From the IMG/VR virus record IMGVR_UViG_3300025853_000186, positions 1-43,402 of that record: a DNA stretch of 43,402 nt; one strand, given 5' to 3'. Source of the stretch: a virus. A program made the position numbers and the translations under genes. Position 1 is the stretch's first letter; each line of letters opens with the position of its first letter. Positions 11,420-36,357 of the stretch are shown here, one piece after another. Below the pieces are notes generated by a model. The model made no database searches, was not told the origin of the DNA, and worked only from the letters and a program-made list of their open reading frames with translations.

Positions 11420-11480
11420 ATCCCTAAGAGATCATTAACACGCCCTTATAGGGGTGGATCCCTTAGGGATACTTTATTTT
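11420..11480 (+). promoter_or_regulatory. Nested inverted repeats around the promoter; 5' leader hairpin or weak terminator
   Basis: ATCCCTAAG at 11420-11428 can pair with CTTAGGGAT at 11462-11470, enclosing the promoter. Alternatively ATCCC/GGGAT at 11458-11470 forms a compact hairpin, followed by the T-rich ACTTTATTTTT. The compact form could terminate transcripts from the lysozyme gene or cap the transcripts that start at 11451. A similar hairpin follows the promoter at 32092, which favours a leader role. Confidence 0.45.
11434..11450 (+). promoter_or_regulatory. Putative phage RNA polymerase promoter (rightward), +1 at about 11451
   Basis: Seventeen bases, ATTAACACGCCCTTATA, followed by GGGG. 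The layout (AC-rich recognition block, TATA, then GG at +1) mirrors T7-type promoters, and nearly the same sequence occurs at 36319-36335 on this strand and at 32109-32093 on the other. It lies in the 80-base gap before the nuclease-headed ejection protein. The matching polymerase would be the 712-residue enzyme encoded at 19687-21804. Confidence 0.65.
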
Positions 11481-11493
11481 TATGGAGGCTTAT

Positions 11494-14400
11494 ATGGCTA
11501 CTAGGCATGAATCAGAAGCTGAAAACACTGCCAAAAACGTACGCAAAAGATTTTTAAAAGGTGCTGACGGAAAGTCGTACGAATGGCTAGACGCTGACTC
11601 TGTTGTAGCTGAAGGTGATGACACTACTATACGACTTAAAGGGTTTAATGCTGCTGAGACTAGCAAGATTATTGATCGGGATGGTGAACTTCGTTTTGTA
11701 CAAGGTCAACTTGGTGCTAAAGAACAAACAGAAGCTATTGCAAATATAGCAGAAGCTGGCGGCTTTAATATCTTTCAAGATACAGGTGAGTTAGACAGCT
11801 ACGGACGCCGATTAGGTACCTTTGTAAATGAAGATGGTGAAGATTTAACTGAAGCAGTTTATTCTTCTGGTTTAGTAGATGTTAATTTATTTACAGATCA
11901 AGAAGGAATTGATGCGGCTAGACGTGGACGTCTACAAGAACAATTACGGGGTACTCGTGGACGTTTTGGCGACATTGTTGATAATGCAATGGGTGATCTT
12001 AAGTATGCGCCTGTTATGTTTAAAGAAACCGCAACAAATGAAAGAGAATACCTTGACTCAGTAATCGAAGTAGTTGCAGAACAAAAAGGGCTTAATCTTT
12101 ATGACGAAGATGAGTATCGTCAAGCATATAACACAGCTATTTCTGGTAATTACGACACGCGTAGTGTTCCTTTTGCAGCAATTGATTTTCGTTATGGTGA
12201 TCGAACTAAAGAAGGCGTAGCATACAATCAGATGACAGAGTCATGGAACACTGGTTGGAAAGGAATGTCAACTGCGTTGTATGGTTTTGCAGAGTTAATA
12301 GGCGTTGAGCTTGGTAGCGATACAATTAAAAATTGGGGCGCGGAAAATGTTGAACAAGCAAAAGATGATCTTGCAAACTCTCCAATACTACGGAACGTTG
12401 ACTACCGGGATGTAGATGGTGTATGGGATGCATGGGAATTCTTTACTAATAATATGGCTATGTCGGCACCTTATCTAGTTACATTAACTGCAGGTCATGT
12501 ATTATCGCCAGTAACTTTCGGTGCATCAGTACCAGTAGCTTACGGTTCTATTCTCGGTACCCATGCAGGTAATGTTTGGAACGATATTGAAGGTCCAAAG
12601 GGTCGTAAAGAAGCATCAGGCGCGATTATCGCGGGAACAGCTATGGCTGTACTAGATCGTATTGGTATGAAAGCTATTATGAAGCCTTCAACCTTGCTTA
12701 CTAAAGAAGGCAGATTGCAAGTTGCTGCTGCTTTAAAGAAACAAAATCCAGGAATGACTTCTGCACAAGCATTAGCTCTTATTAATAAAGAAACAAAGTC
12801 TGTTATTAAAGGTGCTATTGAAGGCATGGGTAATTTTTCTGCTGATCACATTAATAACAGTGCTATTATTAAAGAAGTACTTAAGGGCGCTGGTCGTTCT
12901 GGAGTTATTGAAGGTGTAACAGAGGCTTCTCAAGAAGGTTTAGGTTATTTATCTTCTAAAGCAATGTCAGAAGGTGGACTCAAAGAGAACTTTAATCCTA
13001 ATGAATTCTCAAATATTCTTGCATCATCTGCAGTTGCGGGTGGCGCGTTAGGTACAGGCTTCGGTGGGGCCGGTCAAATAGTAGAAGCTGGCGATCGCTA
13101 TGCTATGCAAAAAGGTTTAATGCTTGGTCGTGTTGATAAGCTAAACCCTTATGATCAACTAAGCCAAGATCTAGGAAAACAAGGTTCTGTATTTAATATT
13201 ACTGAAGAAGCAAGAGCCGCTACGCTTAACCAATCAGGTGGAACTAAAGCAGCACAACGTGCTAGGCAAGGTGAAAAAGCAAGAGGTAATATTTGGTCTA
13301 AGCTAAAAGATCCTACAAAGTATATGCCAGAGCTTTATCGTGCAGCAGCTACGACTGCGTTTAGACCTGAGCTATTGAGAAGATCAGCTGCTGCTAGAAA
13401 GCTTTATGCATTAGTAGGCCAGCCATTAGGTCGTTTATATTCGGGGCGTGACGTACAAGCACAAGAAGCTAAGTATCGTGGGGATATGCTAGGTACTATT
13501 AATCCTCAAAGAGTATTTAAACGCTTTGGAATGGCTGATCGTGTTAGTAACTCTAATAAAATATCAAATATGATTAGACGATTTTATATTGCGGGTGGAG
13601 ATCCGGTAGCATTAGCTGACGACAAAGAAGTAATGGAAAACTACGAAGCAATTGAAGCTACTATTAAAGAATTAAAATTATTCTCAGCTATGTCTTATGC
13701 TTTAAAAAATGATAATTATAAAGCACAAGGTAATAACCGTGATAATTTAGCTGCAGATCCAGATGCTTGGTTTAATGATCAAAGTTGGGACTGGCAAAAG
13801 GTGCGTGATAATCGTGAAGCATGGTTTGATTGGATGCGTAAAAATGCTTTAGATAAAGACGGTAATCAATTGTATACTGAAAATGAATTGATAGAGTTAT
13901 ACAATAAAGTATCTAATAATGAAGATGCTACTGATTTTTCTATTGTTGAAGGCATTGAGTATATCCCTGGAGCAGGAAAAGGTGGAACAGAATTGTTATC
14001 ATCTAAACCTGGTTTCGAACAGTTTGCTAATACAGATATAATACAAAATGCAATTAGCACAGCAAATCAAACTGCTAAGTATGCTGCCTATACAGAATAC
14101 TTTGGTGCTGGCGGTAAGTATCTTGATTATCTATTTAATCAAATGGAAAATGAAGGACTTACTCGTGAAGAAATAGCTGAGATGGCTTATCATACTAAGA
14201 GCATTATTGATGCTGGCACAGGTAATTTTAAGTCTATTAAGAATAGAAAGCTTGCAGCGTTTATGCGTACAGCTACATTTTATACTTCGATAGTAGGCTT
14301 ACCGCTTGCAGCGTTTAGTTCATTACCCGAATTTATTATGATGATATATCAAGCTCGTGGAATGAACGACATTAATAGAGCCATTAATATTTTTACAGGT

Positions 14401-34489: not shown

Positions 34490-34559
34490 CCACTACAGGG
34501 AATACTCCACGTAAACCCAAAAGTATTCCCAAAGTGGTACTATTTATGCCCCTGTAGTG
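34490..34559 (-). terminator. Large interrupted inverted repeat with two alternative pairings; possible terminator or switch
   Basis: CCACT-ACA-GGGAATACT (34490-34506) pairs with AGTATTCCC-AA-AGTGG (34522-34537), giving 14 base pairs around a small internal loop. The same left arm, CACTACAGGG, can instead pair with CCCTGTAGTG (34549-34558) at the end of the HTH-adjacent gene. The two folds exclude each other. No U tract follows on the minus strand (TGTGTCTTTGTG), so an attenuator or processing structure is as likely as a terminator. Confidence 0.5.
34529..34542 (-). repeat. 14-base element TAGTACCACTTTGG, copy 2
   Basis: Minus-strand copy of the element at 36303-36316. Here it immediately follows the stop codon of the 93-residue gene and supplies one arm of the inverted repeat (CCACTTTGGGAATACT), so part of its conservation may be structural. 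Confidence 0.5.
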
Positions 34560-34825
34560 CGCATTGACTGTATTCTGTCTTGACTAGACAGCCATTCAGA
34601 GAGTAAATCAGCGGCTAACGGAGAGTCTGCTGATCTGCTCTGTAAGTATGAAGCGTAAGCTTCGGTGTAAATAGACTCTACTTCATCTACACCTAAATGA
34701 TTATTAAGAGCATCCTCACAATTTATTATAAGTTCACGCTCTTGTAGTTCAACAGAAATGTCTTGCATAAGTGCCTCCAATGCAGCTGAAGATGCATCCT
34801 TAATGTTAAGATCACGAATGTTCAT
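34544..34825 (-). CDS. Hypothetical acidic protein, 93 aa
   Basis: ATG overlaps the stop of the HTH gene (TAATG) after AAGGAGG. The sequence is helical and acidic (ALEALMQDISVELQERELII, EVESIYTEAYASYLQSR). The tight coupling suggests it works with the HTH protein, perhaps as its partner or antagonist. No domain recognised. Confidence 0.72.
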   Translation of the reverse strand: MNIRDLNIKDASSAALEALMQDISVELQERELIINCEDALNNHLGVDEVESIYTEAYASYLQSRSADSPLAADLLSEWLSSQDRIQSMRTTGA

Positions 34826-35121
34826 TAGTTTGCCTCCTTATGGCGAGTTAAACGACTTTGGACTGCTGTCCTAGACATACCAAGTATCTGAGCAACTCTA
34901 GTTTGAGTTAACCCCATAGATACCATTTCGAGTATTCTTTCAGTAGGTATGAAAGGCTTGATTACTCCGTGGTGATTCCTCTTACGAACAATCTCTGGCT
35001 TAGGCATTACAGGTACTCTAGTGTAGCTCTCAAGTCTTTCTTTATTAGCAGCTACACGTTGTTTGTTAGCTTCTTTGTCTGCCCAGTCTTTTAGAGCAGT
35101 TGTTGCTTGTCCTATCCACAT
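34825..35121 (-). CDS. Helix-turn-helix DNA-binding protein, 98 aa
   Basis: The C-terminal 40 residues (ILEMVSMGLTQTRVAQILGM then SRTAVQSRLTRHKE) form a clear HTH of the sigma-70 region 4/resolvase type: helix, turn at MSR, recognition helix. The N-terminus is Lys/Arg-rich. I start it at ATG 35121 after GAAAGGAAC, because the longer frame runs back through the terminator at 35151-35196. As the first gene after that terminator it is a good candidate for the early regulator. Confidence 0.75.
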   Translation of the reverse strand: MWIGQATTALKDWADKEANKQRVAANKERLESYTRVPVMPKPEIVRKRNHHGVIKPFIPTERILEMVSMGLTQTRVAQILGMSRTAVQSRLTRHKEAN

Positions 35122-35150: not shown

Positions 35151-35196
35151 AAAAAAAAAAGAAAGAGCGCCCCCCACCGAAAACAGCAGGGAGCGC
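35151..35196 (-). terminator. Strong intrinsic terminator without A residues in its stem
   Basis: On the minus strand a 13-pair stem (35196-35184 with 35179-35167) closes on a UUUU loop and is followed by UCUUUC and ten U. Nine pairs are G-C and four are G.U; none is A-U, and no A occurs in stem or loop. It closes the A-poor transcription unit that begins near 36.28 kb and lies only 30 bases before the HTH gene start. Confidence 0.9.
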
Positions 35197-35235
35197 ACAG
35201 GCCTTAGAACGGGAATTCTTCACCGCCAGCCGCAG

Positions 35236-35640
35236 CTACGACCGGGGCGACACCAAACGGCTCAGACGACAGGGCGCGAAGTGCTGACCCGACCGACCCG
35301 CAACCGCAAGGAAGACAGGAGAGCCAGAAGCAACAGCTTCGCGCACAGCCGCAAGGAAAGACCGCGCAGCAGGAGACCCTTCGCCGCCAGGAAACCCACG
35401 CGACAGAGCTATGAAGGTTTCAGAGTGGCCTTCAACCGCGCAAGAAGCAGTTACCGACAGACCCTTCAGGCCGTTGTTCGAGGTGTACGGAGCAAGATCC
35501 GAGAGGATCACAGCCACGCCACCCGCTTGAGGCACGAAGGACGAAGACGGCACAGACTTCCCAAAGCCCAGAGAATAGGACTCAGGCACGAAGCCAGCAA
35601 CGGTTGAAACGACGGCGATTTGTGTGTTTGAGTTAGACAT
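35236..35640 (-). CDS. Hypothetical protein, 134 aa, in an A-depleted gene
   Basis: ATG behind GAAAGGAGC at normal spacing; stop at 35236, 40 bases before the A-free terminator. The first 60 residues look ordinary (MSNSNTQIAVVSTVAGFVPE); after about residue 75 the product is dominated by Ala, Ser, Val, Gly, Phe, Arg and Leu (AAVREAVASGSPVFLAVAG), because codons containing A are avoided. Plus-strand T falls to about 4 percent over 35221-35400. No family recognised. The gene is real by signals, but its sequence seems shaped by the nucleotide bias rather than by a protein constraint. Confidence 0.65.
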   Translation of the reverse strand: MSNSNTQIAVVSTVAGFVPESYSLGFGKSVPSSSFVPQAGGVAVILSDLAPYTSNNGLKGLSVTASCAVEGHSETFIALSRGFPGGEGSPAARSFLAAVREAVASGSPVFLAVAGRSGQHFAPCRLSRLVSPRS

Positions 35641-35793
35641 GTTAAGCTCCTTTCAAGAGCGTTAAGGGAAGACGCAGACGACCTCGCACCATTGCAAGGC
35701 CTGGCGGCAACCCACGAGGCGGCTCGGCAAGGGAGGAGAACCGAGACGCCACGAGGACAGCCGAAGAGCAACCCCCGCCACCCGAAGGCAGCA

Positions 35794-35819
35794 GGGGCAA
35801 GGCAGGGAAGCAGGGCGGG
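35794..35819 (+). other. G-quadruplex-type motif in the T-free block
   Basis: Four G runs (GGGG, GGG, GGG, GGG at 35794, 35805, 35813 and 35817) separated by loops of 7, 5 and 1 bases satisfy the usual G3+N1-7 rule on the plus strand. It may be a by-product of local G richness. Confidence 0.5.
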
Positions 35820-36302
35820 AGCTAACCCGCAAGCGCACGCGAAGAAGCCGGAGCCACGGCGCAGAACCACCGCGAGGAAGACCAGCCCGAACGAACGCCA
35901 AGGGACACCGGCGCACCAGAAGCACGAGCGGCGCGGAGAGAGGCAACCAACGCCGACACAGCTGCCGGAGACGACCGACCAACGCGACACGCCAGCGGAG
36001 CCGCAGAACCGGAGACCCAGACAAGGACAGAGCGAGAGGACGCACACCAGCCGAGGCGAGACACCACGGAAGGCCGAGACCACACGACACAAGAAAGAGG
36101 AGAAAGAGAACGGCAGACAACAGAAGAAGAAGACACGACAACACCCCCAAGAAAGGAAAGGAAGAAGGAAGGCCGCCGGAACAACCGACGACCCAGGAAA
36201 AGGCACGAAGCCCCAACCGCCGAGGACAGCGGGGGGGCCACGGGAACCAGCAAGGGGTACCCGCAGCGCTTCACATCTTTTTCTCTCATAAAGAAAAACC
36301 AT

Positions 36303-36316
36303 TAGTACCACTTTGG
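36303..36316 (+). repeat. 14-base element TAGTACCACTTTGG, copy 1
   Basis: Found here three bases upstream of the promoter at 36319, and again on the minus strand at 34542-34529 within the large inverted repeat. An exact 14-base repeat in two control regions suggests a protein-binding site, for example an operator for the HTH protein. Confidence 0.5.
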
Positions 36317-36318
36317 AC

Positions 36319-36335
36319 CTAAACACACCCTTATA
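36319..36335 (+). promoter_or_regulatory. Putative phage RNA polymerase promoter for the terminase/head operon, +1 at about 36336
   Basis: CTAAACACACCCTTATA followed by GGAAAA. It is identical to the minus-strand copy at 32109-32093 across AAACACACCCTTATA and very close to that at 11434-11450. The transcript would start 22 bases before the terminase ATG with an AGAGGA ribosome site in between. Confidence 0.7.
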
Positions 36336-36357
36336 GGAAAATTTAGAGGACAACTAA

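Follow-up and report, generated by a model that had tools for sequence, protein, structure and literature searches.

Why should one strand of a phage genome be nearly devoid of adenine over a single bounded stretch, and what fixes the bounds? The window considered here (the whole stretch of 43,402 nt, an IMG/VR virus record with a T7-like RNA polymerase, a family A DNA polymerase and portal/terminase genes) has only four A's among the 558 nt of its minus strand between 35700 and 36257 (at 35702, 35724, 35823 and 35963), for which log10 P is about -76 at the window's background. G, C and U each make up near one third of this segment, minus-strand A amounts to 0-2 per 100 nt over 35700-36250, and no 200-nt stretch elsewhere in the window falls below 15%. 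A strand-specific composition check, proposed in a preliminary description of the locus, reproduced the depletion profile along the window. A is scarcest in what had been called the leader, relaxes to 14-24 per 100 around the beginning of the following gene (previously put at about 16%), falls back to 4-5 per 100 at 35250-35400 (about 4% had been claimed for the 3' half of that gene), and is absent, as stated, from the stem of a predicted terminator (35167-35196, minus strand). From 35121 downward it is back at 36-42 per 100, in an HTH gene (34825-35121, minus strand) just past the terminator that had rightly been described as normal in composition. The loss of A extends through non-coding leader, coding sequence and terminator stem alike and is indifferent to codon position and sequence context. 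The claimed extent, from leader through gene to terminator, is thus upheld, but the leader is not simply non-coding, as it holds an A-free gene.

This gene, which we call gene X (35822-36136, minus strand), encodes 104 amino acids between a GTG start and a TAG stop, the latter containing one of the four A's, and was recognised from codon periodicity, a paralogue HMM and a homologue in the Roseobacter phage CRP-7. Substitutions between relatives at offsets 270-540 of the supposed leader fall at one codon position and are gapless; judged by these patterns, gene X is protein-coding and under purifying selection. The only residues in its product are F, L, S, C, W, P, R, V, A and G, the ten amino acids that can be encoded without A. 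Past the first residue, adherence to this ten-residue alphabet is 100% in the window and in L022 and L033, compared with 45-67% in A-normal homologues. Where other A-poor proteins keep A-containing codons beyond the start, these are mostly for Asp and Glu, which have no A-free codon, and in the CRP-7 homologue A is confined to the ATG, to Asp, Glu and Lys codons and to the TAA stop. At fourfold-degenerate sites gene X has 0% A versus 33% in the terminase of the same genomes (a comparison near saturation), while the proportions of T, C and G are about those of the terminase's non-A sites. The A-normal form of gene X in L085 gave no match in phage records.

The translation signals are affected as well. 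An A-free Shine-Dalgarno sequence, GGGGG (36144-36148, minus strand), lies 7 nt ahead of the GTG and could pair with CCUCC by wobble. Its identification rests on a series of homologues, which runs from AAAGGAGG-ATG (L045) and TTTGGAGG-ATG (L050) through TGTGGAG-ATG (L052) and TGTGGGG-ATG (L042, L034) to TGTGGGG-GTG (L022, L033). As far as aligned homologues can tell, there is successive loss of A from these signals, from GGAGG-ATG to GGGG-ATG to GGGG-GTG.

Downstream of gene X, an intergenic stretch (35641-35821, minus strand) is A-poor to about 35700 and then keeps A's around GAAAGGAGC, the Shine-Dalgarno sequence of gene Y. Gene Y (35236-35640, minus strand) is the 134-residue gene of the preliminary description; it is indeed partly depleted, but the reading frame then recognised is truncated. 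In the near-identical L001 and L002 the gene is intact and encodes 145 aa ending in GGEEFPF (equivalent to 35204-35640), and relative to these one T is missing near 35277 in the window, causing a frameshift. This one-base deletion could be genuine or could have arisen in assembly. Genes X and Y are paralogues of one family according to the HMM, with A-normal members in other phages, L006 among them; the second gene is partly depleted in some phages (third-position A of 14-15% in L036 and L038). AlphaFold confidently models the window's A-free protein (pLDDT 86) and an A-normal member (pLDDT 83) as OB-like small barrels, and we predict a small OB-like fold for the family on the strength of these models. 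An OB fold is defined by a five-stranded barrel whose third and fourth strands are separated by a helix, to which the models correspond only in an OB-like topology. They resemble OB-fold single-stranded nucleic acid-binding proteins in the predicted barrel, the helix before the last strands and the SSB-like C-terminal tip of gene Y, and differ in that the family has no sequence match in Pfam or PHROGs and agrees only moderately in structure with solved OB folds (Z no higher than 7.9); a profile search of PDB sequences returned nothing meaningful. A role in nucleic-acid or nucleotide binding, perhaps in counter-defence, is an inference without binding data. Genes near the boundary in L015, L030, L040, L045, L050 and L072 join the OB-like domain to a zincin-like C-terminal domain with an HExxH motif, and this second domain matches phrog_16532/10499, whose function is unknown. 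The block of L072 spans the first (OB-like) domain and fades into the second.

The depletion is not private to one genome. Among 80 relatives collected by a terminase search, most show the same sharp leftward-strand depletion starting just upstream of the terminase, with very different lengths (100 to 1,160 nt across loci), and we find the block in about 50 related contigs as well as in CRP-7, the only close cultured relative found. Because many of the loci are pieces of phages that are related to one another, the counts fall short of full independence. CRP-7 is a Roseobacter phage with a 58.1-kb genome (PMC6918029). Its windows reach 0% A from record position 57387 onward, and the edges of its block lie at about 57390 and about 58050 of the record; the published annotation places gp72 across the A-free block on the opposite strand (57271-57966 of the record, 13272-13967 of our locus L082), and the conserved block gene lies on the plus strand at about 57608-57994. 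The passages of the CRP-7 paper that name this phage do not describe the block. About ten genes separate block and terminase in the CRP-7 clade, which places the block at the head of the leftward early unit instead of with the terminase. No window so depleted in A was found in CRP-1, CRP-4, CRP-6, MW202692 or PTXU04 (minimum 6-14%), and we reject the idea of a phage-wide trait on this ground. Unrelated small ORFs occupying the same slot, first after the boundary, in L003, L010, L017 and L020 are also A-poor (for instance one with ...SLRQR...FRGWR in L003 and L010), so that the depletion is a property of the unit rather than of a particular gene family.

Where, then, does the depletion stop? 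The preliminary description had proposed that its edge coincides with a transcript end and that the constraint consequently operates on the RNA itself or while it is being made. In the window the 3' edge lies at a predicted intrinsic terminator (35152-35196, minus strand) consisting of the A-free stem, read from 35196 to 35167, and a T tract. For each locus the edge was set by maximum likelihood, as the point where A changes from low to normal; terminators were predicted independently of it, as hairpins followed by T tracts. Thirty loci have a depleted block as well as a predicted terminator, and in 23 of them the change point lies no more than 60 nt from a terminator, mostly no more than 15 nt, against 3.7 expected (P<5e-5); none of 20,000 randomisations exceeded 12, although these placed change points uniformly and did not control for gene ends. 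This result, obtained for predicted ends and within the window's own clade, lends the proposal support. It relies on a strict terminator scan, as a looser one gave false hits inside T-rich A-free sequence. With the looser scan, A steps from 13.4% to 26.4% at the first terminator (n=40, P=8e-6) but stays level across the later terminators of these loci (31.0% to 32.9%, n=35, P=0.32). Block lengths track the terminator from about 100 nt (L007) through 120-140 nt (L045, L040, L063), 350-440 nt (L028, L029, L003), 550-610 nt (L011, L026) and 950 nt (L031) to 1,110-1,160 nt (the window, L022, L033, L036, L038). Genes beyond the terminator are normal in A even 30 nt later: OB-family genes 30-40 nt past it in L045 and L040 have 35-37% A, whereas their A-free relatives lie before it. 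In L042, L054 and L055, which belong to the window's own clade, the block fades gradually and no terminator is detectable; in loci of the CRP-7 clade mostly no T-tract terminator was detected at the block edge, and none was found in the L078 clade. On average A becomes more frequent away from the promoter, yet a pure distance model was discarded, as A content and distance are uncorrelated within the OB family (rho 0.10) and terminator position explains the data better.

At the 5' edge lies a promoter-like block, TTTATGAGAGAAAAAGATGTG (36272-36292, minus strand), aligned in about 50 relatives with the consensus TTTATGTATAAAAAAGATGTG. The motif is unique in the window and is the last A-rich sequence ahead of the block, A-poor sequence following directly. 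It looks like an extended -10 promoter, although a sigma-70 consensus scan did not call it, and an unmapped transcription start is inferred near GATG. A conserved element of the putative transcript's 5' end, GGGTACCC...CCCCCC (36230-36262, minus strand), emerged from an alignment of about 48 leaders and carries the leader's one conserved A in relatives; RNAalifold found no consensus RNA structure in this alignment, and the element has no match in Rfam. Since the 3' edges mostly fall at terminators, the start falls at a conserved promoter-like motif and codon position and context are ignored, the depletion tracks a predicted RNA, from promoter-like motif to terminator, whose ends are unmapped.

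We propose that the block is one leftward transcription unit in which any A in the RNA is selected against, because this RNA must be made, or must survive, when adenine is a liability, and we assign this reading a probability of roughly 0.5. The unit would open the early region of CRP-7-type phages and comprise a promoter, the 5' element, one or two small genes of the OB-fold family and an intrinsic terminator. A would be selected against anywhere in its RNA, by an agent that is only inferred, and would survive only where no A-free substitute exists, as in stop codons, Asp and Glu codons and part of the Shine-Dalgarno/start region. The most likely agent might be a host response that reads A as a single base and that the phage evades, for instance an adenosine-specific endoribonuclease of the Csx1/Csm6 (HEPN) kind; single-base A-specific RNases of this kind exist in type III CRISPR systems (PMC7192623). 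Alternatively, the unit may be transcribed during an ATP shortage or amid an A-type chain terminator (an ATP analogue). We know of no case in which Csx1 or Csm6 has selected the composition of phage mRNA. The broader statement, namely that these phages exclude one nucleotide from an early unit to allow its RNA to be synthesised, or to persist, in a cell that degrades or holds back adenine, with proteins rewritten to a ten-letter alphabet and with A-free Shine-Dalgarno sequences and starts, remains tentative and falls somewhat short of even odds. Several observations speak against the proposal. There are no data on host defence or ATP shortage, and whether the hosts of these phages have A-specific RNases is unknown; other early genes past the terminator are normal in A; depletion of the second gene is no more than partial in some phages, the blocks of L042, L054 and L055 fade, and all ends are predicted. 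Residual A's are base-paired at 0.59 versus 0.63 expected, and this neutrality gives no support for a single-strand RNase.

The main competitor, which we regard as possible but rather unlikely, is a transcription-coupled or RNA-templated mutagenesis that converts A's of the RNA-like strand to C, G and T, so that genes are purged and selection keeps only indispensable A's. It would account for an extent equal to the predicted transcript, for the climb of average A with promoter distance and for the joint rise of C, G and T where A is down, which fits A-to-N change and excludes A-to-G deamination or any single deaminase. C-G and G-T differences, too, are relatively common in the block. Yet the remaining A's of partly depleted genes are not hypermutable: their per-site loss in polarised triples is 2-7%, which does not exceed that of C, G or T, and near-identical pairs have almost no differences within the block. 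In L050 a newly captured A-rich gene follows the leader with no terminator between them; there A is gained as often as it is lost, and no burst of A loss is seen. The fourfold-site transversion bias is not clearly raised (the comparison is saturated), and fourfold A of about 0% would need A loss many tens of times normal in gene X and a few times normal in gene Y on the same transcript. As to machinery, neither complete CRP-7 (at E<=10) nor any of 14 related records contains a reverse transcriptase (PF00078), no A-rich template repeat was found in the window or CRP-7 (the best match being no better than for shuffled block), and no adenine deaminase, reverse transcriptase or RNase was recognised among the scanned window genes. 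Because the remaining A's are not hypermutable and neither a reverse transcriptase nor a template repeat was found, we favour direct selection against A as a base in the block's RNA over A-to-N mutagenesis as the best fit, with the cause unsettled.

Far less probable is expression from UV-damaged DNA, whereby template T dimers block RNA polymerase and template T's are lost from promoter to terminator. These phages come from the surface ocean, and the depletion is strand-specific and bounded by the transcription unit, but this mechanism predicts tolerance of pyrimidine-flanked A's, whereas YAY contexts hold 20% of residual A's versus 18% outside the block. Residual A's have no trinucleotide motif beyond coding and Shine-Dalgarno contexts, and this neutrality of context weakens motif-specific nucleases along with UV dimers. 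Selection on RNA structure was dismissed, U being undepleted, residual A's not preferentially paired, and consensus structure and Rfam match lacking. Acquired high-GC DNA, codon bias or replication-strand bias could be invoked for a block of about 65% GC in a genome of 40%; they are effectively refuted by the A/T asymmetry (T makes up 30-45% of the A-lacking strand) and the edges at terminators, and non-coding parts are equally depleted and a single genome locus is affected. Given a metagenomic record with one frameshift in gene Y, an assembly or sequencing artefact might also be suspected, but the block recurs with codon-level conservation in about 50 independent contigs and in cultured CRP-7, which refutes it.

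We found no known system that accounts for an adenine-free unit. Diversity-generating retroelements (DGR) likewise affect adenine only, replace it by all three other bases and act on a bounded stretch defined by an RNA, but they cover roughly 0.1 kb versus up to 1.1 kb here and use a reverse transcriptase and a template/variable repeat pair; in the block A's are lost instead of diversified, and the remaining ones are not hypervariable, so that a DGR was rejected. Somatic hypermutation of immunoglobulin genes is linked to a promoter, oriented with the transcript and able to target A on the non-template strand. The block shares these features and differs in its sharp end at a terminator, with no deaminase or error-prone polymerase identified and no sign of hypermutation at present. 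Phage mRNAs that are free of the motifs which host or phage RNases cleave resemble it in target avoidance at the RNA level, untranslated parts included; here, however, an entire base is avoided in every context, and protein composition, Shine-Dalgarno sequence and start codon are rewritten. Adenosine-specific Csx1/Csm6 HEPN RNases remain a candidate agent (PMC7192623). In the part of the literature that could be searched, we found neither a described natural transcription unit purged of one nucleotide end to end nor a mention of an adenine-free phage transcript. The unit would offer natural, apparently functional proteins made from ten amino acid types, which bears on questions of protein folds and the origin of the code, and a natural test of translation without A in the Shine-Dalgarno sequence or start codon. 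It also points strongly towards a host defence or a mutagenic process directed at A, so far unknown, in abundant marine bacteria, and cultured CRP-7 makes the unit directly testable.

The surroundings of the boundary carry further conserved sequences. A conserved CACCCTTATAGGA (36326-36338, plus strand) is likely, by inference, the rightward phage-RNA-polymerase promoter of the terminase unit; CACCCTTATAGG-like motifs stand at unit heads in the window, at this same position 36326 (plus) and also at 11441 (plus) and 32090 (minus), and are probably promoters of the phage RNA polymerase. A perfect inverted pair of AAAGTGGTACTA flanks the region (34531-34542, plus strand; 36303-36314, minus strand), the boundary copy being kept in close relatives. 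L053 and L068 are the only full-length loci with the promoter-like motif and yet a leader of normal A content; upstream of their terminase no terminator lies nearby, and the leader runs directly into a gp2.5-like SSB gene. Finally, nine contigs (L008, L012, L018, L019, L037, L041, L057, L058 and L062) open 10-35 bp before the terminase start; assemblies might break at the hypervariable block, or a genome end might lie there.
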